A stretch of 64,000 nt of DNA from positions 1-64,000 of the forward strand of contig JAHRVB010000142.1 of assembly GCA_019090895.1 (NCBI GenBank), written 5' to 3'. The position numbers and the translations under genes were made by a program. This document shows, piece after piece, positions 4,449 to 10,052 of this stretch (position 1 is the first letter of the stretch; each line of letters starts with the position of its first letter). The notes under the pieces were generated by a model, which was not told the origin of the DNA, did no database searches, and saw nothing but the letters and a program-made list of their open reading frames with translations. The DNA comes from Kangiellaceae bacterium (GTDB taxonomy: Bacteria > Pseudomonadota > Gammaproteobacteria > Enterobacterales > Kangiellaceae).

Positions 4449-5042
4449 ATGAGAAAACTAAACCACACCTTGCTACTTTTAACTATATTTGCTGCAAGCC
4501 TCCTTACGTCATCAGCCAATGCGAAAGGCCCCGCTGGAACGGTATTATACTTTCAGCAGGGCGAACAAGTATTTCTGCTACTAGCCGATCACTCTAGCAA
4601 TTCCCGAGGTTGGGGATCTTTTGGAGGCGGAGAAAATAAAGGTGAAACTTCAATAGAGACGGCTGCACGAGAAACCGAAGAAGAAACCCGTGGATATTTT
4701 CCACGAGAACTAATCGAACAAAAAATAGCAGGACAAAAACCAGTTGTATCTAAAGGATTCTCTCTTTATTTTGTAGAAATCCCTTTTGTACCCGCACAAC
4801 GGATCAGAAATAATCCTAGCGATAAATCCGACAAGAGCACCTTTGAACGCGATCACTATGCTTGGATACCCTTTTCAGAAGTTAAGAAGGCAATCAATAA
4901 AAGGAACCCATCTATTCACGATTTAAAAATCAACTCCCTTTATCTTTCTCGCGGAACAAAAACTAACTTTTTCTGGGATGTTTGGATACAGAATATGCGA
5001 CACGCTGCCGAACAGGGTGTGGTACCTTGGGAAGTTCAATAA
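4449..5042 (+). CDS. Exported Nudix-domain protein
   Basis: 197 residues. A clear signal peptide (HTLLLLTIFAASLLTSSANA) is followed by a Nudix box, GGGENKGETSIETAARETEEE, which fits G-x5-E-x7-RE-x2-EE apart from Arg in place of the last Gly. Nudix enzymes hydrolyse nucleoside-diphosphate-linked substrates and normally act in the cytoplasm, so export is unusual. No strong Shine-Dalgarno is visible. The stop overlaps the 3' end of the convergent HNH gene by 7 bases. Confidence 0.7.
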   Translation: MRKLNHTLLLLTIFAASLLTSSANAKGPAGTVLYFQQGEQVFLLLADHSSNSRGWGSFGGGENKGETSIETAARETEEETRGYFPRELIEQKIAGQKPVVSKGFSLYFVEIPFVPAQRIRNNPSDKSDKSTFERDHYAWIPFSEVKKAINKRNPSIHDLKINSLYLSRGTKTNFFWDVWIQNMRHAAEQGVVPWEVQ

Positions 5043-5590
5043 CGCATATTATTGGAAAATTCTTTGGTTAAGAAATCCATTTGATCGGCAAAAATATTTC
5101 TATTACAAAAAGCTAAGTACTCTGCTTTGTTCGGCTTATAAGGGACGGCCAGCAAAGGCATATTCGCTTCTTCTGGCGTTCGGCATCCCTTACGATTATT
5201 ACAAGGCTTACAAGCTGTTGCAAAGTTAACCCAAGAATTTTTTCCGCCTCGCGCGCGAGGTTGGATATGGTCACAAGTTAGGGTAGAACGGCTGAATACA
5301 ACACCGCAGTACAAACACATATCGCGGTCACGTTTAAACAAAGATGCGTTACACAATCTTGGCGTACGAAGGTCGCTCTCACGAACTCGAGAGTTGGTTG
5401 CGATCACCGGCGCCATGTCTAGAATAGTTTGATTCCCCGTCATTCGAGAATGACCACCATGCAGCCGAACCGATTCGTCACCATAAGTCCATAGCACTTT
5501 ACCTTTCGCGTAAAGACACGCAGCAGTGCCCATTCCAATCCATTCCATCGCCTGCCCCGCTTTATTAAGCCGCAGGATTTTAGTTTGCAT
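5036..5590 (-). CDS. HNH endonuclease at the 3' end of the tRNA array
   Basis: 184 residues from the ATG at 5590, chosen because GAGGAG lies seven bases upstream; an earlier in-frame start adds ten residues. The C-terminal half is an HNH domain: CLYCG, then CDHIQPRARGG, then NFATACKPCNNRKG, giving two zinc-binding Cys pairs and the DH catalytic pair. The N-terminal 90 residues are uncharacterised. It lies 57 bases downstream of tRNA-Arg(TCT) on the same strand and is probably the last gene of the array transcript. HNH proteins of this size can be homing or restriction-like nucleases; the target is unknown. Confidence 0.85.
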   Translation of the reverse strand: MQTKILRLNKAGQAMEWIGMGTAACLYAKGKVLWTYGDESVRLHGGHSRMTGNQTILDMAPVIATNSRVRESDLRTPRLCNASLFKRDRDMCLYCGVVFSRSTLTCDHIQPRARGGKNSWVNFATACKPCNNRKGCRTPEEANMPLLAVPYKPNKAEYLAFCNRNIFADQMDFLTKEFSNNMRY

Positions 5591-5646
5591 TTTCTTTCTC
5601 CTCTTTTTTATTGTCAGCAATCAATTAATTAGTTTTCGCATAAAGT

Positions 5647-5721
5647 TGGCACGCATCACAGGATTCGAACCTGTTACCGTCGGCTTAGAAGGCAGAAGCT
5701 CTATCCGAATGCGCTAGTGCC
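5647..5721 (-). tRNA. tRNA-Arg(TCT), degenerate 5' half
   Basis: The anticodon loop CTTCTAA, the T-arm ACAGG-TTCGAAT-CCTGT and an encoded CCA are clear. The 5' strand does not pair well with the 3' acceptor strand when a normal D-arm is drawn. A start at 5714 would give a paired 7-bp acceptor but removes most of the D-arm. It may be D-arm-truncated or a pseudogene. Confidence 0.6.
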
Positions 5722-5728
5722 TATCAAT

Positions 5729-5803
5729 TGGAGCGACATGCCGGATTTGAACCGACGAAATTTGGGTTTGCAATCCAATACATTTCCACTCTGTCAATGT
5801 CGC
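5729..5803 (-). tRNA. tRNA-Cys(GCA)
   Basis: Perfect 7-bp acceptor GCGACAT/ATGTCGC, T73 and encoded CCA. Loop TTGCAAA gives anticodon GCA. One mismatch closes the anticodon stem (A31-C39). Confidence 0.85.
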
Positions 5804-5831
5804 AAAAATTTTTGTAAAAATGTGACCGCTA

Positions 5832-6134
5832 TTAGCGGCCACGAAACCGATACAATCGGTTAATTGATTTAATTCCTTGTTCCATTCGCTGACGCGCTGA
5901 AACATTGGCGGAATGTACCTTAATGTTCGGCGGGATCACACCATAGTCAACCACTGCTTTTTCAAGCCAAGTAATGACATCGTAACCGGTGCCGCGTTTA
6001 TCATTTCCTAAGTCATGATCTAAACTTATATCGCTTACTGCACCTGTCATTAAAAGACTAATCGCCTCTTGTGGCCAACGAACAACTTTCCAACCAGGCG
6101 GCGCCTGACGGATATCATCTAAAAAAACTTTCAT
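5832..6134 (-). CDS. Cyclic-phosphate-processing receiver-domain protein (cREC)
   Basis: 100 residues behind an excellent AGGAGG site. The whole protein is one receiver-like domain: MKVFLDDIR (acidic pair), ISLDHDLGND (phospho-acceptor-position Asp plus a histidine) and IKVHSAN. This matches the cREC family proposed, from genome-context work, to act on 2',3'-cyclic phosphates in RNA repair; that role is family knowledge by prediction, not proof. It sits inside the tRNA operon between tRNA-Thr and tRNA-Cys with no promoter of its own visible. It should therefore be co-expressed with the tRNAs, which suggests processing of damaged tRNA ends. Confidence 0.8.
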   Translation of the reverse strand: MKVFLDDIRQAPPGWKVVRWPQEAISLLMTGAVSDISLDHDLGNDKRGTGYDVITWLEKAVVDYGVIPPNIKVHSANVSARQRMEQGIKSINRLYRFRGR

Positions 6135-6154
6135 ACTATCCTCCTGGGTAAATT

Positions 6155-6229
6155 TGGAGCCGGTTATTGGATTCGAACCAATGTCGACTGCTTACAAGGC
6201 AGTTACTAAACCATCTCAGCTAAACCGGC
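6155..6229 (-). tRNA. tRNA-Thr(TGT)
   Basis: Perfect acceptor GCCGGTT/AACCGGC and encoded CCA. Loop CTTGTAA gives anticodon TGT. Canonical T-loop TTCGAAT. Confidence 0.93.
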
Positions 6230-6235
6230 ATAAAT

Positions 6236-6310
6236 TGGAAGCCCCGACTGGGTTCGAACCAGCGATACGAGAGTCAAAGTCTCGTGTGTTGCCAACTACA
6301 CTACAGGGCT
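6236..6310 (-). tRNA. tRNA-Gln(TTG)
   Basis: Acceptor AGCCCTG/CGGGGCT with one G-U pair and encoded CCA. Anticodon stem CGAGA/TCTCG closes loop CTTTGAC, anticodon TTG. Confidence 0.92.
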
Positions 6311-6317
6311 AAAAAAT

Positions 6318-6393
6318 TGGCACCCTTGGCAAGACTCGAACTTTCGCATCTTGGTTTCGTAGACCAAAGCTCTTCCAACTGAGCTACAAGGGT
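6318..6393 (-). tRNA. tRNA-Arg(ACG)
   Basis: Perfect acceptor ACCCTTG/CAAGGGT and encoded CCA. Stem TTGGT/ACCAA closes loop CTACGAA, anticodon ACG, which needs A34-to-inosine editing to read all CGN codons except CGG. The T-stem has one mismatch. Confidence 0.9.
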
Positions 6394-6398
6394 ATATT

Positions 6399-6473
6399 TG
6401 GTGTCTCCAATTGGATTCGAACCAATGTCTCGAGAATTTCAACCTCGCGCTAATCCAACTCAGCTATGAAAAC
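6399..6473 (-). tRNA. tRNA-Phe(GAA)
   Basis: Acceptor GTTTTCA pairs with TGGAGAC using two G-U pairs; CCA is encoded. Loop TTGAAAT gives anticodon GAA. Confidence 0.88.
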
Positions 6474-6480
6474 AATTATT

Positions 6481-6562
6481 TGGAACACGAGACGGGATTC
6501 GAACCTGCGAATGAATGACCAGATTGAAAGTCTGGTCACTTTGACCGCTCGTATACTCGTGT
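6481..6562 (-). tRNA. tRNA with anticodon TTC (Glu) on a Tyr/Ser-like body
   Basis: Perfect acceptor ACACGAG/CTCGTGT, T73 and CCA. A 7-bp stem GACCAGA/TCTGGTC closes loop CTTTCAA, anticodon TTC. The D-region (ACGAGCGGTCAAAG) looks like a class II tRNA such as tRNA-Tyr, yet the variable segment is only about 9 bases. Its charging identity is therefore uncertain. A conventional tRNA-Glu(TTC) lies next to it. Confidence 0.7.
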
Positions 6563-6568
6563 ATAAAC

Positions 6569-6644
6569 TGGTGTTCCTATGGGGATTCGAACCCCAGTAA
6601 CTTGGTAGAAAGCCAAGTGTCCTTAGCCACTAGACTATAGGAAC
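6569..6644 (-). tRNA. tRNA-Glu(TTC)
   Basis: Perfect acceptor GTTCCTA/TAGGAAC and CCA. Stem CTTGG/CCAAG closes loop CTTTCTA, anticodon TTC. The GTCTAGTGGC D-region is typical of tRNA-Glu. Confidence 0.93.
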
Positions 6645-6649
6645 ATGTT

Positions 6650-6726
6650 TGGTAGGCCGCCCGAGATTCGAACTCGGAACCTTCCGGTTAAAAGCCGGAT
6701 GCTGCTTCCAATTGAGCTAGCGACCT
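6650..6726 (-). tRNA. tRNA-Lys(TTT)
   Basis: Acceptor AGGTCGC/GCGGCCT with one G-U pair and encoded CCA. Stem TCCGG/CCGGA closes loop CTTTTAA, anticodon TTT. Confidence 0.93.
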
Positions 6727-6732
6727 AAAAAA

Positions 6733-6831
6733 TGGTAGTACTGGATTGAATCGAACAATCGACCTCCTGTGTGTAAGACAGGCGCTCTCCCAATCGTCTC
6801 ATTACGCCTACTTTTGGTGAGCTAAAGTGCT
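6733..6831 (-). tRNA. tRNA-Val(TAC) with a D-loop insertion
   Basis: Stem CCTGT/ACAGG closes loop CTTACAC, anticodon TAC; T-arm GATTG-TTCGATT-CAATC and CCA are present. The standard TAGCTCA and TGGGAGAGC halves of the D-arm are separated by about 21-23 extra bases. Taking the distal 5' end, acceptor AGCACTT pairs at 5 of 7 positions with CAGTACT. Taking the nearer 5' end gives a much poorer acceptor. The insert is nearly identical to that in tRNA-Ala (7069-7186). Confidence 0.7.
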
Positions 6832-6837
6832 AAAAAT

Positions 6838-6913
6838 TGGTCCCCAGAGCTGGTCATGATCCAGCCACCTCACGCTTATCAGGCGTGTGCTCTACCAGAT
6901 GAGCTATCTGGGG
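6838..6913 (-). tRNA. tRNA-Ile(GAT) with atypical T-loop
   Basis: Perfect acceptor CCCCAGA/TCTGGGG and CCA. Stem CACGC/GCGTG closes loop CTGATAA, anticodon GAT. The T-loop is ATCATGA rather than TTCRANN, which replaces the usual T54-A58 pair by A54/T58. Confidence 0.88.
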
Positions 6914-6988
6914 AAAACGGTCGAGTCGGACTTTCACCGTGACGGGTCTGTAGGGTGAAGCCTCGACCGACTTCACCATCGTTTTTCC
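6914..6988 (-). other. Structured spacer, possible tRNA-Asp remnant
   Basis: This 75-base gap between tRNA genes is longer than the others and folds strongly. GGTCGAG pairs with CTCGACC, and alternatively GGTGAAG pairs with CTTCACC. A CCGTCACGG stretch resembles the tRNA-Asp(GTC) anticodon region, but no normal T-arm can be drawn. No other Asp tRNA is found in the array. Confidence 0.3.
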
Positions 6989-7062
6989 TGGCGGATGTAC
7001 AAAGAATCGAACTTTGATCAAACGGTTAACAGCCGTTCGCTCTACCATTGAGCTACACATCC
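6989..7062 (-). tRNA. tRNA-Asn(GTT)
   Basis: Acceptor GGATGTG/TACATCC (one G-U) and encoded CCA. Stem AACGG/CCGTT closes loop CTGTTAA, anticodon GTT. Confidence 0.93.
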
Positions 7063-7068
7063 TAAAGT

Positions 7069-7186
7069 TGGTGGAGATGATGAGATTCGAACTCTTTCCT
7101 CTCGTAGCAATTCGAACTCTACAACTTGCAAAGCTTTTGCTCTCCCAATCGTCTAATAACGCCTACACTTGTTGAGCTACACCCCC
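7069..7186 (-). tRNA. tRNA-Ala(TGC) with D-loop insertion and duplicated T-arm-like element
   Basis: 118 bases. The outer ends pair fully: GGGGGTG with CATCTCC (G-U allowed), then A73 and CCA. Loop TTTGCAA gives anticodon TGC. The D-arm halves are separated by about 21 extra bases that match the insert in tRNA-Val at 26 of 28 aligned positions. After the anticodon arm there is an extra hairpin GTAG/CTAC containing AGTTCGAAT, a second T-loop-like sequence, before the true T-arm. Confidence 0.65.
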
Positions 7187-7206
7187 ATTCCAAACATTTT
7201 AATAAC

Positions 7207-7275
7207 TGGCATAGAGCGAGGGAATCGAACCCGTTTCTTAAGGCTTACAACCGTGTATAATCGCCGACATACTAT
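7207..7275 (-). tRNA. Degenerate tRNA-like gene, anticodon GTA or TGT
   Basis: Encoded CCA, T-loop TTCGATT and a GG-TTGTAAG-CC anticodon arm are visible. Only four outer acceptor pairs (ATAG/CTAT) plus one wobble form. A 7-base loop gives GTA (Tyr), while a shifted reading gives TGT (Thr). Short length and weak stems suggest a decaying copy. Confidence 0.45.
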
Positions 7276-7287
7276 GGCATCGTAAAT

Positions 7288-7363
7288 TGGTCGGAGGTAC
7301 AGGATTTGAACCTGTGATATACACTCCCAAAGCGTAGGTGTTACCAGACTACACTAACCTCCG
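7288..7363 (-). tRNA. tRNA-Pro(TGG)
   Basis: Perfect acceptor CGGAGGT/ACCTCCG and CCA. Stem TACGC/GTGTA closes loop TTTGGGA, anticodon TGG. Confidence 0.92.
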
Positions 7364-7373
7364 TTAATCAATT

Positions 7374-7449
7374 TGGTAGCAATGACAGGACTTGAACCTG
7401 TGCAAATTTTCGTATGAAGAAAACACTCTACCAACTGAGCTACATTGCT
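7374..7449 (-). tRNA. tRNA-Met(CAT), elongator type
   Basis: Perfect acceptor AGCAATG/CATTGCT and CCA. Stem TTTTC/GAAAA closes loop TTCATAC, anticodon CAT. The paired 1-72 position argues against an initiator. Confidence 0.88.
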
Positions 7450-7455
7450 AAAATT

Positions 7456-7530
7456 TGGTTGCGGATGACTGAATCGAACGGCCGACCAAAGGGACATGAA
7501 CCTTATATGCTTCCACAGCACTAACCCGCT
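7456..7530 (-). tRNA. CAT-anticodon tRNA, possibly initiator-like
   Basis: Loop TTCATGT gives anticodon CAT. The acceptor AGCGGGT/ATCCGCA pairs at six positions but has A1 opposite A72; bacterial initiator tRNA also has an unpaired 1-72. The 3' end CCGCAACCA matches the E. coli tRNA-fMet tail. The anticodon stem has only GG/CC next to the loop rather than three G-C pairs, so the identity is tentative. Confidence 0.7.
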
Positions 7531-7536
7531 TTAATT

Positions 7537-7611
7537 TGGAGCAAACACTGAGACTCGAACTCAGCCTTTAAGATTGGAAATCTTTCGTGCTACCGCTAAC
7601 ACTATGCTTGC
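7537..7611 (-). tRNA. tRNA-Gly(TCC)
   Basis: Acceptor GCAAGCA/TGTTTGC (one G-U), T73 and CCA. Stem AAGA/TCTT closes loop TTTCCAA, anticodon TCC. Confidence 0.9.
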
Positions 7612-7612
7612 T

Positions 7613-7696
7613 TGGTGGACAGCCCGGGTTTCGAACCCGGCACGCTATTAAGCATCGGATTTACAGTCCGAATGAGATCCAAATCTCCCGCTACCC
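7613..7696 (-). tRNA. tRNA-Tyr(GTA)
   Basis: First tRNA of the long distal block. Acceptor GGGTAGC/GCTGTCC (two G-U) and CCA; stem TCGGA/TCCGA closes loop CTGTAAA, anticodon GTA. It has a class II variable arm of about 14 bases and a short D-loop inside GAGA/TCTC. Confidence 0.9.
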
Positions 7697-7828: not shown

Positions 7829-7860
7829 AAAAAAACCCGAGGCTTTGAACTCTCGGGTTT
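7829..7860 (-). terminator. Terminator of attenuator 3
   Basis: On the minus strand ACCCGAGAG-loop-CCTCGGGT is followed by seven T residues: a strong intrinsic terminator. Its 5' arm can instead pair with upstream CTCTCGAGTTT (7868-7878). Confidence 0.9.
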
Positions 7861-7917
7861 AAATAAAAAACTCGAGAGAAACTTTTGCGTAACTCCCAAG
7901 TAAAACTTACTTTGAAG
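7861..7917 (-). promoter_or_regulatory. Attenuator 3 competing-hairpin region
   Basis: Segments in transcript order: 1 at 7917-7906 directly after the leader stop, 2 at 7903-7888, 3 at 7878-7868, and 4 at 7860-7850 (terminator 5' arm). AAGTAA/TTACTT pairs 1:2, GGGAG/CTCTC pairs 2:3 (one G-U), and CTCTCG-GTTT/AAAC-CGAGAG pairs 3:4. A ribosome at the stop would cover segment 1, favouring 2:3 and the terminator. Earlier stalling would allow 1:2 and antiterminator 3:4. Confidence 0.75.
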
Positions 7918-8046
7918 TTACGTTGGCGCACCTCTAGCACCAAAATAAATCTTGCTATTCATTTGCCCATGTTCGGGCCGTACAATCTCACACCAATGAT
8001 TTATCGGCTGTGTTAACTGCATCTGCTTTTGGCTATTTATTTTCAT
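7918..8046 (-). CDS. Leader peptide 3 of the tRNA array
   Basis: A 42-residue ORF starting MKINSQKQMQL, with GGAA four to five bases before the ATG and ending GARGAPT. It uses 19 of the 20 amino acids (only Asp absent). It lies between tRNA-Ile2 and terminator 3, and its stop codon abuts the first attenuator segment. No promoter fits in the 26 bases upstream, so it is probably transcribed by readthrough of attenuator 2. The position and broad composition fit a codon-sampling attenuation peptide rather than a stable protein. It precedes the block with Tyr, Gly, Met, Pro, Ala, Asn, Ile, Val, Lys, Glu, Phe, Arg, Gln, Thr and Cys tRNAs. Confidence 0.7.
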   Translation of the reverse strand: MKINSQKQMQLTQPINHWCEIVRPEHGQMNSKIYFGARGAPT

Positions 8047-8072
8047 AGTTTCCAATTTTATCTACGTTAATT

Positions 8073-8149
8073 TGGTGGGCCTGCTCAGATTCGAACTGAG
8101 ACTCTACCGATTATGAGTCGGTTGCATTAACCAATTATGCTACAGGTCC
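8073..8149 (-). tRNA. tRNA-Ile2 (CAT, probable lysidine type)
   Basis: Acceptor GGACCTG/CAGGCCC with one A-C mismatch, A73 and CCA. Stem ACCGA/TCGGT closes loop CTCATAA, anticodon CAT. C4-G69 and C5-G68, and the CGACTCATAATCG anticodon arm shared with E. coli tRNA-Ile2, fit known TilS recognition. It would then read ATA. It stands alone between attenuators 2 and 3. Confidence 0.8.
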
Positions 8150-8165
8150 AACTTATATTTTTGGC

Positions 8166-8204
8166 AAAAAAAAGCCCTGTGAAGAATATCTCAACCGGGC
8201 TTTA
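8166..8204 (-). terminator. Terminator of attenuator 2
   Basis: Minus-strand AAAGCCC-19-base loop-GGGCTTT followed by a T-run. It sits 17 bases upstream of tRNA-Ile2, so it can only serve that tRNA as an attenuator or end an upstream transcript. Confidence 0.85.
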
Positions 8205-8249
8205 GATTCGGTTCGAGACTTCAGTTAAGCCTCGAATTATTGTTCAAAG
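8190..8249 (-). promoter_or_regulatory. Attenuator 2 competing-hairpin region
   Basis: Segments in transcript order: 0 at 8249-8243, four bases after the leader stop; 1 at 8236-8227; 2 at 8221-8209; 3 at 8198-8190, overlapping the terminator. CTTTGAA/TTCGAGG pairs 0:1 (two G-U), TTCGAGGCTT/AAGTCTCGAA pairs 1:2 over 10 bp, and AACCG/CGGTT plus CTC/GAG pairs 2:3. A ribosome at the stop masks segment 0, giving 1:2 and termination. Earlier stalling gives 0:1 and antiterminator 2:3. Confidence 0.75.
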
Positions 8250-8253
8250 CACA

Positions 8254-8361
8254 CTACATCTTTCTATTTTCATATTGCCCAATAAATGGCATGCAACAAT
8301 ATTCAGCCGGCCAATAATTGGCCCGTTGTTTTATTTGTATTGTCGCTATTATCTGATTCAT
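8254..8361 (-). CDS. Leader peptide 2 of the tRNA array
   Basis: A 35-residue ORF beginning MNQIIATIQIKQRANYW. Four of its first ten codons are ATA, and the next tRNA downstream is the CAT tRNA predicted to read ATA. The peptide uses M, N, Q, I, A, T, K, R, Y, W, P, E, C, F and G. It has no Leu, Ser or His, which are exactly the residues served by the tRNA block upstream; it also lacks Val and Asp. The ribosome-binding site is weak (an A-rich tract). It is preceded by a consensus promoter at 8450-8478. It is read as a regulatory leader, with no stable product expected. Confidence 0.7.
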   Translation of the reverse strand: MNQIIATIQIKQRANYWPAEYCCMPFIGQYENRKM

Positions 8362-8449
8362 AAAACTTTTTTCAAACTAACTTTGTAAATTAAAATTTCC
8401 TAAACACTAAGAGATACAAGTTTTTCTTACTGCTCATTTGTTAAGTTGC

Positions 8450-8478
8450 ATTAAACCATTACAGAACTTCACTGTCAA
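8450..8478 (-). promoter_or_regulatory. Sigma-70 promoter P2
   Basis: Minus-strand TTGACA, 17-base spacer, TTTAAT. It drives leader 2, tRNA-Ile2 and, by readthrough, leader 3 and the long block. The rest of 8362-8663 is AT-rich and shows no gene. Confidence 0.8.
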
Positions 8479-8663
8479 CACCTAGACTATATTTTATTCA
8501 ATAATATCAAAGAGTTATAGAATTTGATGCACAATAAACCCTTCACCGTTTTTCGCAGTAAATATCTTTTAATATTTGAAACAGACCCATTCAATTCCAA
8601 ACCTACAACACCATTATCGAATTTTCAGTTAACAACTATTACTCCGTTTACTTTTTGGTAATT

Positions 8664-8740
8664 TGGTACGCCGCGAGGGACTCGAACCCTCAAAACCGGA
8701 GGCTTAAACCCCGTATGTATGCCAATTCCATCACCGACGC
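8664..8740 (-). tRNA. tRNA-Leu(TAA) with collapsed variable arm
   Basis: Acceptor GCGTCGG/GCGGCGT pairs at six positions with wobbles; CCA is encoded. Stem CGGGG/CTCCG closes loop TTTAAGC, anticodon TAA. The GATGGAATTGGCA D-region is Leu-like, yet the variable segment is only five bases instead of a class II arm. Confidence 0.8.
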
Positions 8741-8747
8741 ATTAAAC

Positions 8748-8836
8748 TGGAGGAGAGAAAGAGAATCGAACTCTAAAGGCTTTCGCCTTCCCTTTGCTTA
8801 GCAAGCAACGCCGATCACCATCACGGATTACTCTCC
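8748..8836 (-). tRNA. tRNA-Ser(GCT)
   Basis: Acceptor GGAGAGT/TCTCTCC pairs at six positions and CCA is encoded. Stem GTTGC/GCAAA (outermost pair mismatched) closes loop TTGCTAA, anticodon GCT. A class II variable arm AAGGC-GAAA-GCCTT is present. Confidence 0.88.
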
Positions 8837-8845
8837 AAAATAATT

Positions 8846-8938
8846 TGGCGGAAGCCGGAGGGCTCGAACCCCAAATCCTATTCAGGTACCACTGGTTTTC
8901 AAGACCAGGGCTTTGACCAACTCAAAGTTTCAACTTCC
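8846..8938 (-). tRNA. tRNA-Ser(TGA)
   Basis: Acceptor GGAAGTT/GGCTTCC (G-U allowed), G73 and CCA. Stem CTGGT/ACCAG closes loop CTTGAAA, anticodon TGA. The D-stem is extended (CTTTG/CAAAG) and a long variable arm is present. Confidence 0.88.
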
Positions 8939-8944
8939 TATATT

Positions 8945-9115
8945 TGGTACCCAGAGAGACTACTCAGACCATCCTTGGTCTTCATACATTCGTGCCATCG
9001 TCATTCTTCCGATGTTCGGCAATGCTCCTTCATTGCTCGTCGAACTCTTAATGAACGGATTCTAAATCCGCCGTGTATGCCGGACTATTTATAGCCAGCC
9101 TGGCACCACCTGGGC
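8945..9115 (-). tRNA. tRNA-Leu(TAG) with about 85 extra bases
   Basis: 171 bases. Outer ends pair fully, GCCCAGG with TCTGGGT (G-U allowed), then A73 and CCA. Stem GCGGA/TCCGT closes loop TTTAGAA, anticodon TAG. The D-loop is enlarged. The T-loop TTCGACG is followed by an insertion with three perfect hairpins (9019-9036, 8996-9014, 8966-8981) before the 3' T-stem. A functional tRNA would need removal or tolerance of this insert. Confidence 0.65.
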
Positions 9116-9141
9116 TTCATCTGTTTTTTACAAATCATCAT

Positions 9142-9218
9142 TGGGGTAACCAATCGGGTTTGAACCGATATCATCCGGACTCACAATCCGGAGCTCGACC
9201 AATTGAGCTATGGCTACC
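9142..9218 (-). tRNA. tRNA-His(GTG)
   Basis: Acceptor GTAGCCA/TGGTTAC, C73 and CCA, with an encoded G at -1, the His identity element. Stem CCGGA/TCCGG closes loop TTGTGAG, anticodon GTG. First tRNA after attenuator 1. Confidence 0.93.
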
Positions 9219-9254
9219 CCAATAATGACTAACAAATTTACGGAATTTCAGGCA

Positions 9255-9286
9255 TAAAAAAACCGCAAGTTTTTGGCTTGCGGTTT
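9255..9286 (-). terminator. Terminator of attenuator 1
   Basis: Minus-strand AAACCGCAAG-7-base loop-CTTGCGGTTT followed by T residues. It lies 37 bases upstream of tRNA-His. Confidence 0.9.
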
Positions 9287-9351
9287 AAAGAATCAGGTTT
9301 AATTTAAATTCTTCTTATCCGGAAGCCTGCGCTCCCAAATAAGGAAGCGAG
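9275..9351 (-). promoter_or_regulatory. Attenuator 1 competing-hairpin region
   Basis: Segments in transcript order: 1 at 9351-9343 directly after the leader stop, 2 at 9336-9330, 3 at 9327-9319, 4 at 9283-9275 (terminator 5' arm). CGCTTCC/GGGAGCG pairs 1:2, GGGAGC/GCTTCC pairs 2:3, and GGCTTCCGG/CCGCAAGCC pairs 3:4 at eight of nine positions. A ribosome at the stop would mask segment 1, leaving 2:3 and the terminator. Stalling earlier would give 1:2 and antiterminator 3:4. Confidence 0.78.
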
Positions 9352-9483
9352 CTAGATCAACAACGAATGCTCTTTACGTGTTATTGATCCACTAAATGAA
9401 TAACCCCATAAACTGAGCACAGCAGGGCTGGAGATCCGATGATCTCTTTGCACTGTATTCAGTTGATTTAGGAATGTGTTCAT
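9352..9483 (-). CDS. Leader peptide 1 of the tRNA array
   Basis: A 43-residue ORF starting MNTFLNQLNTVQRDHR, with AAAGG about 12 bases before the ATG and ending RKEHSLLI. It uses 19 different amino acids (Cys absent). Leu (6), Ser (7) and His (2) make up 15 of 43 codons. They include CTA, CTG, CTC, TTA and TTG for Leu, and TCC, TCA, TCG, AGC and AGT for Ser. The block it precedes encodes tRNA-His, Leu(TAG), Ser(TGA), Ser(GCT) and Leu(TAA), which read these codon families. A consensus promoter lies 77 bases upstream. It is interpreted as a codon-sampling attenuation leader. Confidence 0.75.
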   Translation of the reverse strand: MNTFLNQLNTVQRDHRISSPAVLSLWGYSFSGSITRKEHSLLI

Positions 9484-9559
9484 TTGCAAATTTACCTTTC
9501 AAATATAATTTCAGGCTTAGGTTTTAGTTGCTCTAAAGCCTGTCCATTCAGTTAACGAG

Positions 9560-9588
9560 AATATACCGACTTAGAATTCAACCGTCAA
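9560..9588 (-). promoter_or_regulatory. Sigma-70 promoter P1
   Basis: Minus-strand TTGACG, 17-base spacer, TATATT. It drives leader 1 and the His-Leu-Ser-Ser-Leu tRNA block. Confidence 0.85.
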
Positions 9589-9764
9589 GTGAAATTTCTT
9601 AAATACTGTTAATAATCAATATGTTACAGTTTGTGGCGTACACGAATAGATCTTCACCCTCCTTGGATAAATATTACTTCCTGGTTCATTTTATGGTTTT
9701 CATTTAAACCACTCTATCGTTTGTTGTTATATTCTTTATCACAGTTTCTCTTTTATTTAGGTGT

Positions 9765-9800
9765 AAAAAAACGCCGGTTGCTTAGTAGCTTCCGGCGTTC
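9765..9800 (-). terminator. Terminator of attenuator 4
   Basis: Minus-strand AACGCCGG-14-base loop-CCGGCGT followed by T residues. The following 176 bases down to promoter P1 hold no tRNA or convincing gene. Confidence 0.88.
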
Positions 9801-9866
9801 TTATAAAATTAAAACTTTATTTAAACTTTGGAAGCTATTCACTTCCAAATTAAGGTTGGAAGTGAA
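9786..9866 (-). promoter_or_regulatory. Attenuator 4 competing-hairpin region
   Basis: Segments in transcript order: 1 at 9866-9858 right after the leader stop, 2 at 9846-9838, 3 at 9837-9830, 4 at 9793-9786 touching the terminator 5' arm. TTCACTTCC/GGAAGTGAA pairs 1:2 (9 bp perfect), GGAAG/CTTCC pairs 2:3, and TAGCTTCC/GGAAGCTA pairs 3:4 (8 bp perfect). The order and logic match attenuators 1-3, although the antiterminator overlaps the terminator stem by only two bases. Confidence 0.7.
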
Positions 9867-9867
9867 A

Positions 9868-9993
9868 TTATCGAGGGTGCTCCCCCAATAACGATATCAT
9901 CTTATCTGCTAGACAACTGAGCACACGTGTCCAGGCAGAGATATCCCCCGCTTGAAAATAATTGCACTGTTGAATAACCGTTAAGTGAAACAA
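9868..9993 (-). CDS. Leader peptide 4 of the tRNA array
   Basis: A 41-residue reading from a TTG at 9993, beginning MFHLTVIQQCNYFQAGDI and ending GEHPR. All 20 amino acids occur. TTG was chosen because AAAGGAAGAG lies just upstream and a promoter (TTGTAT-18-TAGAAT) just before that. The frame itself is open to a GTG at 10089, giving 73 residues. No tRNA follows its terminator before the next promoter, so it is an orphan module, or the outermost gate acting by readthrough into module 1. Confidence 0.55.
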   Translation of the reverse strand: MFHLTVIQQCNYFQAGDISAWTRVLSCLADKMISLLGEHPR

Positions 9994-10022
9994 AATCGCT
10001 CTTCCTTTATTTAACTGCTCAC

Positions 10023-10052
10023 ATTCTATCGTTTTAGGTACGAAAAATACAA
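10023..10052 (-). promoter_or_regulatory. Sigma-70 promoter P4
   Basis: Minus-strand TTGTAT, 18-base spacer, TAGAAT, placed to start a transcript about 20-25 bases before the leader 4 TTG. Confidence 0.6.

Follow-up and report, generated by a model that had tools for sequence, protein, structure and literature searches.

In the 64,000-nucleotide window analysed here (positions 1 to 64,000 of contig JAHRVB010000142.1, assembly GCA_019090895.1, Kangiellaceae bacterium), a tRNA array is read from the minus strand and is interspersed with four units, U1 to U4, each made of a short open reading frame (ORF) ending in a strong intrinsic terminator. U1 and U2 precede any tRNA. The first tRNA gene, tRNA-His(GUG), lies at 9142..9217 and is followed, within 8664..8938, by two serine-type genes missed by ARAGORN (8938-8850 and 8837-8751) and by tRNA-Leu(UAA) (8740-8664). 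The two serine-type genes are best matched by the tRNA-Sec model, at 35 and 42 bits, below its gathering score. tRNA-Met(CAU), at 8073..8149, is the only tRNA between U3 and U4. The rest of the array, at 5647..7696, comprises Tyr, Gly, Met, Met, Pro, Asn, Ile, Val, Lys, Glu, Glu, Phe, Arg, Gln, Thr, Cys and Arg, with a gene for a cREC (cyclic-phosphate processing receiver) protein inside it (5832..6134; Pfam PF20274, E=1.9e-28). An HNH endonuclease gene (Pfam HNH; 5036..5620) occupies the 3' end of the array. With 20 genes found by ARAGORN plus the two serine-type genes, the cluster is redundant with the host set, the genome as a whole giving 61 tRNA matches.

The sequence-only reading had proposed that the four units are leader-peptide attenuators, and the ORFs, terminators and pairing segments it described are confirmed. 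The U1 leader ORF (9868..9993) has a TTG start with an upstream AAGGA, and its 41 codons, MFHLTVIQQCNYFQAGDISAWTRVLSCLADKMISLLGEHPR, include all 20 amino acids. Its attenuator (9769..9870) begins at the stop codon, 9870-9868, and consists of segment 1 (9866-9856), segment 2 (9848-9838), segment 3 (9837-9823), segment 4 (9800-9786) and the terminator (9800-9769). The U2 leader (9352..9483; 43 codons) contains 19 different amino acids, lacking only Cys, and has orthologues in 7 other arrays; its attenuator (9260..9354) has segments 1 to 4 at 9349-9343, 9336-9330, 9327-9319 and 9283-9275 and a terminator at 9286-9260. The U3 leader (8254..8361; 35 codons) contains 15 different amino acids, and its attenuator (8171..8256) has the corresponding segments at 8256-8243, 8236-8222, 8219-8209 and 8197-8188 and a terminator at 8203-8171. 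The U4 leader (7918..8046; 42 codons) contains 19, lacking only Asp, and its attenuator (7833..7922) has segments at 7922-7907, 7903-7888, 7878-7868 and 7860-7850 and a terminator at 7860-7833. In contrast, the claim that three units have sigma-70 promoters is only partly supported. U2 has TTGACG-17-TATATT (9560..9588) and U3 has TTGACA-17-TTTAAT (8450..8478, recognized by eye), both consensus matches only; the U1 candidate is weak, and the region as a whole has no more promoter-like sites than shuffled sequences (13 against 12.0±3.1).

In each unit five segments pair in a chain. Helix 1:2 starts from 2 bases before to 5 bases after the first base of the stop codon, and helices 2:3, 3:4 and 4:5 follow. 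All four units pass a strict chain test that 6% of dinucleotide-shuffled linkers pass (48/800). We recovered related arrays through the HNH and cREC genes, and the same architecture is present in 23 of 23 units from nine arrays in two bacterial orders, against 4.3% of shuffled linkers (197/4600), although the unit types share no obvious sequence. Homologous arrays lacking the ORFs and alternative pairings, the outcome the sequence-only reading had named as contrary to its proposal, were thus not what we found among these relatives. The HNH gene is conserved in all 8 related arrays and the cREC gene in 4 other arrays, whereas none of the window's flank proteins is found beside any of the 8, indicating that array and leaders travel together between non-syntenic sites. 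HNH alone, however, is not a marker of arrays, since its relatives in one family of the order (f7) have no tRNAs nearby. Two plasmid loci with cREC showed no array either, but this is weak evidence because the annotation lists no RNA genes.

The leaders are selected for diversity. The four in the window contain 73 distinct residues summed, against 62.9±2.9 for protein segments of the same lengths (P=0.00015), although U3 alone is not more diverse than chance. Over 21 leaders the sum is 386, against 339±6.5 expected, a value reached by none of 20,000 simulations, and six leaders contain all 20 amino acids. Without any choice of start codons, the last 40 codons are more diverse in the leader frame than in the other two (Wilcoxon P=6e-5). 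Homologous leaders are too few and too diverged for a convincing test of coding selection by codon-position counts, with only a weak hint in L092/L097. A link between the His/Leu/Ser content of U2 and the tRNAs directly behind it is suggestive at most (27% against 18-25% in other types).

The strongest evidence came from phages. Several phages with smaller tRNA operons carry the same leader/terminator device, and the composition of each leader matches the tRNAs of its own operon. This is the case for 4 of 4 operons in Salicola phage SCTP-2, for 4 of 4 in a 735-kb megaphage (LR756501) and for several uncultured phages; in the phage operon designated L315, 29 of 31 residues are cognate to 14 downstream isotypes. 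For 19 curated units the summed z score is 55.4, which 0 of 200,000 permutations reach (best sampled about 28.5), and with all 30 automatic hits, false ones included, 0 of 100,000 match as well. The plain isotype-coverage statistic is weaker when all automatic hits are included (1341/100,000), and among individual cases L171 is indifferent and Gundel_1 is not matched to its whole cluster. As for long arrays, leaders with all 20 amino acids precede phage arrays of 25 and 38 tRNAs, and a leader with 19 precedes the 27-tRNA array of a Methylibium plasmid. Many other tRNA arrays lack the device. It was not found in the tRNA-rich phages T5, XacN1 and Mx1, in a Variovorax plasmid array or in Kehishuvirus, while the stretch of KVP40 examined gave no tRNAs and was uninformative. 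Furthermore, a scan for the Salicola-type terminator found 12 contigs without tRNAs, so the hairpin alone is not diagnostic.

These data are best explained, and we consider it very likely, by ribosome-mediated transcription attenuation of the trp/his type acting on tRNA genes. By sequence and folding, if segment 1 at the stop codon is free, 1:2 and 3:4 pair and the 5' arm of the terminator is sequestered; if segment 1 is covered by a ribosome at the stop codon, 2:3 pairs first and the 4:5 terminator is free to form. The logic of the sequence-only reading (a ribosome at the stop leads to termination, one stalled earlier to readthrough) follows from the segment order in all 23 bacterial units and in nearly all phage units, although two different pairing designs are used. 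Before segment 4 is made, masking the stop codon gives the 2:3 hairpin in 23/23 units. At equilibrium, however, only 14 of 23 show a clear drop of antiterminator when the stop is masked, and U1-type units need kinetic trapping of 2:3. Mask profiles switch when the free RNA begins near the stop; most phage units are sharp in this respect, but the Methylibium unit and L167 are not. Translation of the leaders and induction by tRNA depletion are inferred, and most start codons have weak Shine-Dalgarno matches. In this scenario, with enough charged tRNAs the ribosome reaches the stop codon and transcription ends before the tRNAs. When any tRNA needed for the leader becomes scarce, through an anticodon nuclease, a toxin, host shut-off or starvation, the ribosome would stall upstream and RNA polymerase would read on into the replacement tRNA genes. 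Leaders in front of full-complement arrays would act as general sensors, those in front of small phage operons as specific ones, and the tandem units U1 to U4 would keep the array silent and let it be released in stages. The likely purpose is to restore translation after tRNA attack, the array being an acquired, mobile cassette of leaders, divergent tRNAs, usually cREC, and HNH.

It is tempting to go one step further and to envision a distributed class of tRNA-supply sensors, in which mobile bacterial arrays and large phages measure the availability of individual tRNAs, or of all 20 at once, by translating a purpose-built test peptide, and transcribe exactly the replacement tRNAs that are missing. 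This would amount to an inducible anti-anticodon-nuclease system whose leader sequence predicts which tRNAs are expected to be attacked. We regard this broader view as probable, but less secure than the attenuation mechanism itself.

Alternative explanations survive less well. The arrays might be silent relics of phages, whose attenuators once worked in a phage but do nothing useful in these bacteria. HNH relatives and the leader device do occur in phages, the array tRNAs are divergent from those of the host (51-79% identity where compared) and some look degenerate. Yet segments and leader diversity are kept in nine arrays at different sites and at 48-77% protein identity, which needs continuing selection at least in the mobile cassette, making this view unlikely though not excluded. 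More doubtful is the possibility that the leaders sense translation in general (ribosome-targeting antibiotics, low ribosome supply or uncoupling), regardless of peptide content. The RNA switch alone would respond to any stalled or absent ribosome, and the Anabaena tRNA array is induced by translation-targeting antibiotics (PMC10272220). However, this model predicts no bias in composition, whereas composition is biased twice, towards all 20 amino acids in array leaders and towards cognate residues in phage leaders. It is very improbable that the terminators are ordinary ends or insulators between tRNA genes and the small ORFs fortuitous or coding for small proteins. Shine-Dalgarno sequences are weak, promoter matches are at chance level and short ORFs are common, but 23/23 units have mutually exclusive pairings anchored at the stop of the ORF, U1 and U2 precede any tRNA and so are not 3' ends, and peptide sequences diverge while architecture and diversity persist. 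Finally, T-box-like or protein-mediated antitermination is very improbable, despite repression of the Anabaena trn operon by TrcR (PMC10272220), since no T-box or other Rfam regulatory family reaches threshold in the window and neither mechanism explains the stop-anchored chain.

Why phages and bacteria carry tRNA arrays, and how these stay silent until needed, is debated, and as far as we found the induction mechanism is known only for Anabaena. Here it can be read from sequence if, as inferred, the leader states which tRNAs are sensed. This makes the replacement-tRNA hypothesis directly testable in a cultured phage, SCTP-2, offers a way to find regulated tRNA operons in genomes and suggests ready-made sensors for tRNA depletion. 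Literature searches for attenuation or leader peptides controlling tRNA arrays or phage tRNAs found nothing, within a collection lacking subscription papers and preprints, and to our knowledge a test peptide with all 20 amino acids is undescribed.

The Anabaena PCC 7120 trn operon, a long tRNA array (L-array), resembles the present one in being a horizontally acquired, supernumerary array; in Anabaena it is normally silent and is induced by translational stress, and HNH genes of the same family sit beside other arrays. Anabaena, however, uses a ribbon-helix-helix repressor, TrcR, at the promoter, and the text of the paper mentions no leader ORF or attenuator (PMC10272220). Mycobacterium tRNA array units (PMC5966550, PMC12803027) are likewise mobile, with an embedded HNH gene, unrelated flanks and a proposed antidefence role, but a text search of PMC12803027 shows no leader ORFs or attenuation. 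Phage tRNA genes can counter tRNA-cleaving defence, as with the tRNA-Tyr of T6 against Septu (PMC13096335), and replacement of tRNAs after nuclease attack is the likely purpose here too; that work, however, describes gene amplification through SegB, not regulated transcription. In the erm, vmlR and bmrC attenuators, ribosome stalling on a leader ORF also releases downstream expression, but these sense antibiotics through stalling, and the composition match to downstream tRNAs has no counterpart. The units share with the attenuators of amino-acid biosynthesis operons (trp, his, thr, leu, ilv, phe) a short leader ORF, mutually exclusive antiterminator and terminator, an outcome inferred to be set by ribosome position and a leader rich in codons for what the operon supplies. 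They differ in that the output is tRNA genes, not enzymes, in that the inferred input is a set of tRNAs, up to all 20, instead of one or a few, and, in the bacterial arrays, in the five-segment chain that begins at the stop codon.

The cassette examined here lies on one contig of a 4.96-Mb bacterial assembly and occupies the minus strand from about 9,993 down to 5,036. It comprises four leader/attenuator units, a tRNA array, a cREC gene (PF20274, E=1.9e-28) and an HNH endonuclease gene. ARAGORN identifies 20 tRNA genes in the array, to which two serine-type genes, seen only by covariance model, can be added. Where a comparison could be made, the array tRNAs are 51-79% identical to the host isoacceptors. 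A degenerate, partly duplicated tRNA-Ala-like sequence, with two T-arm-like repeats, the anticodon TGC and a weak tmRNA-model match, is found at 7186-7069. The same genome carries a second HNH relative on another contig (C91, 44273-44842) which contains an in-frame TAA and has no tRNAs nearby; this is probably a relic or a solitary copy.

The sequence-only reading had described four leader ORFs, each followed by a terminator, with peptides containing 20, 19, 15 and 19 different amino acids. The ORFs, their lengths, the amino-acid counts and the four terminators are all as described; however, the claim that three of the units have sigma-70 promoters is weaker than stated. Folding of the transcript cut off before the 3' arm of the terminator gives, in all four units, a hairpin between segments 1 and 2 (1:2) that starts at the stop codon, plus a 3:4 helix that occupies the 5' arm or the loop of the terminator. 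When the bases up to about 12 past the first base of the stop are masked, as they would be by a terminating ribosome, 2:3 replaces 1:2 and segment 4 is left for the terminator. In the first unit, U1, this requires that 2:3 form before segment 4 is made.

HNH and cREC relatives led us to eight more arrays, seven in genomes of the same family and one in a Pseudomonadales genome. In all of them, leader ORFs with strong terminators sit in front of or within the tRNAs. None of the proteins flanking the window's array lies beside any other array, while HNH is always there and cREC is present in four more, so the leaders move with the cassette. A chain criterion, calling for at least six 1:2 pairs, six 3:4 pairs and four 2:3 pairs using the same segments, is met by 23 of 23 units and by 197 of 4,600 dinucleotide-shuffled linkers. 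It should be noted that the leader stop of each unit was picked by eye from the ORFs near the terminator, which gave the real units a small freedom that the shuffles did not have. Furthermore, the 23 units are related, so the product of their probabilities is not meaningful; for the four window units alone it is about 1e-5. Equilibrium folding shows the switch in 14 of 23 units, whereas the rest depend on folding order. The units fall into about four types that share no obvious sequence, so the common architecture is not simple descent. Within type 2, compensatory changes are seen in the terminator and in 2:3, although with only eight sequences this evidence is modest.

The composition of the leaders is consistent with a role as test peptides. 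Over 21 leaders, the summed number of distinct residues is 386, against 339±6.5 for protein segments of the same lengths, 346±6.0 for random draws and 342±6.7 for other small ORFs; no simulation reached the observed value. Six leaders have all 20 amino acids, and Trp, Cys and His are typically present once or twice. Start codons are uncertain in several leaders and some Shine-Dalgarno matches are weak; however, the result does not depend on the choice of start. In the 40 codons before the stop, the leader frame has 404 distinct residues in total, against 364 and 359 in the other frames (paired P=6e-5); the other frames lose a few positions to stops.

An independent test of this idea came from phages. 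The HNH relative in the cultured Salicola phage SCTP-2 (440 kb) led to tRNA operons each headed by an ORF and a terminator. Leader A (12 Asn, 6 Ile, 4 Met, 4 Asp and 3 His after the start) precedes Asp, His, Met, Ile and an interrupted Asn gene. The latter, a tRNA-Asn(GUU) gene at 1329-1447 of the phage segment examined, L066 (about 298,729-298,847 of the phage), is interrupted inside its anticodon loop by about 44 nt. With the insert left out the loop reads CUGUUAA, and the insert is possibly a small intron or a scar. Leader B (Lys, Phe, Trp, Val, Ser, Gly, Ala) precedes Lys, Phe, Trp, Val, Ser, Gly and a weakly scored Ala. Leader C (Thr, Ser, Glu, Arg) precedes Ser, Glu, Thr and, at L066 12564-12640, what looks like the 5' half of a tRNA-Arg(ACG) gene without its 3' half nearby. 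Leader D (Gln, Leu, Pro, Tyr) precedes Leu, Pro, Leu, Tyr and Gln. The true pairing of leaders and operons is the best of 24 (9.2 against 6.8). In this phage the end of the leader itself pairs with the 5' arm of the terminator, so that the design has three segments instead of five but the same sign.

To see whether this finding could be replicated, we carried out an automatic scan for terminator, ORF and pairing, in which composition was not used, on 80 HNH-related viral contigs, 80 cREC-related contigs and 16 contigs chosen by terminator sequence. The scan gave many more units, although the cREC-related contigs themselves gave almost nothing. Examples include MRTTLLHTLLLDRQGLLRRLMP before Leu, Arg, Leu; MKTTIKHMVFSTQQKSICWYERMRDCSSDVILG before Glu, Val, Phe, Lys, Cys, Trp, Tyr, Met, Gln, Arg, His; and MKRINKHNIQVVKSQFSNCWYPRMLFIGSVKS before 14 isotypes, with 29 of 31 residues cognate. 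Upstream of the leaders in two of the phage loci, L171 and L186, and in their relatives, TTG / TAnnTTTG-like promoter sequences suggest hosts in Bacteroidota for some phages with matched leaders. A 735-kb megaphage record (LR756501) gave four of four: a Leu-rich leader before five Leu genes; Lys/Asn/Asp/Tyr/Cys/Ile before Ile, Cys, Asp, Asn, Tyr; Gln/Met/Ile before Met and Gln; and Ser/Lys/His/Phe/Trp before Trp, His, Phe, Lys, Ser. In contrast, the cultured Tenacibaculum phage Gundel_1 (12938-13056 of the segment examined, L319) has a leader, MKTKLYSYSCFSSWFKNRAG, and an attenuator before Phe, Ser, an undetermined tRNA and Ser, but the leader is not matched to the rest of the cluster.

The match between leaders and operons was evaluated by permutation. 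With ten units, 0 of 200,000 permutations matched as well, and all 52 isotypes were present in their own leaders. With all 30 non-redundant automatic hits, including evident false ones, the figure was 0 of 100,000 for the match score and 1341 of 100,000 for plain coverage; with 19 curated units, it was 0 of 200,000. The curated set was assembled by us after seeing the match in some of its members; the 30-hit test is the unselected one. Long phage arrays of 25 and 38 tRNAs have 42- and 51-codon leaders with all 20 amino acids. The megaplasmid of Methylibium petroleiphilum PM1 has a 60-codon leader with 19 amino acids before 27 tRNAs, but its predicted switch is not sharp. More generally, the array-type HNH endonuclease family occurs on plasmids (Variovorax, Methylibium, Nostoc, Mycobacterium and others); the three that we opened, from Variovorax, Methylibium and Nostoc, carry tRNA arrays of 42, 27 and 20 genes, so this family may be a marker of mobile tRNA arrays in several phyla. 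Other tRNA-rich phages and arrays do not have the leader device, which is thus widespread but not universal.

While the anatomy of the units, the mutually exclusive pairings and their sign, the composition biases and the co-mobility with the array are apparent from the data presented here, translation of the leaders, coupling of ribosome and polymerase, and induction by scarcity of aminoacyl-tRNA are inferred. The likely physiological cause is attack on tRNAs during phage-host or toxin conflict. The presence of cREC, predicted to process cyclic phosphates or cyclic ADP-ribose in jumbo phages (PMC7824862), would fit this view, although this too is inference.

The device works like, and by every feature tested here is, a ribosome-mediated attenuator. 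We found no description of leader-peptide control of tRNA genes in the open-access literature, our search not extending to subscription papers and preprints. The present system differs from described attenuators in what is controlled and what is sensed. The nearest biological precedent is the Anabaena L-array, which is silent and is induced by translational stress, but which is controlled by the repressor TrcR (PMC10272220).
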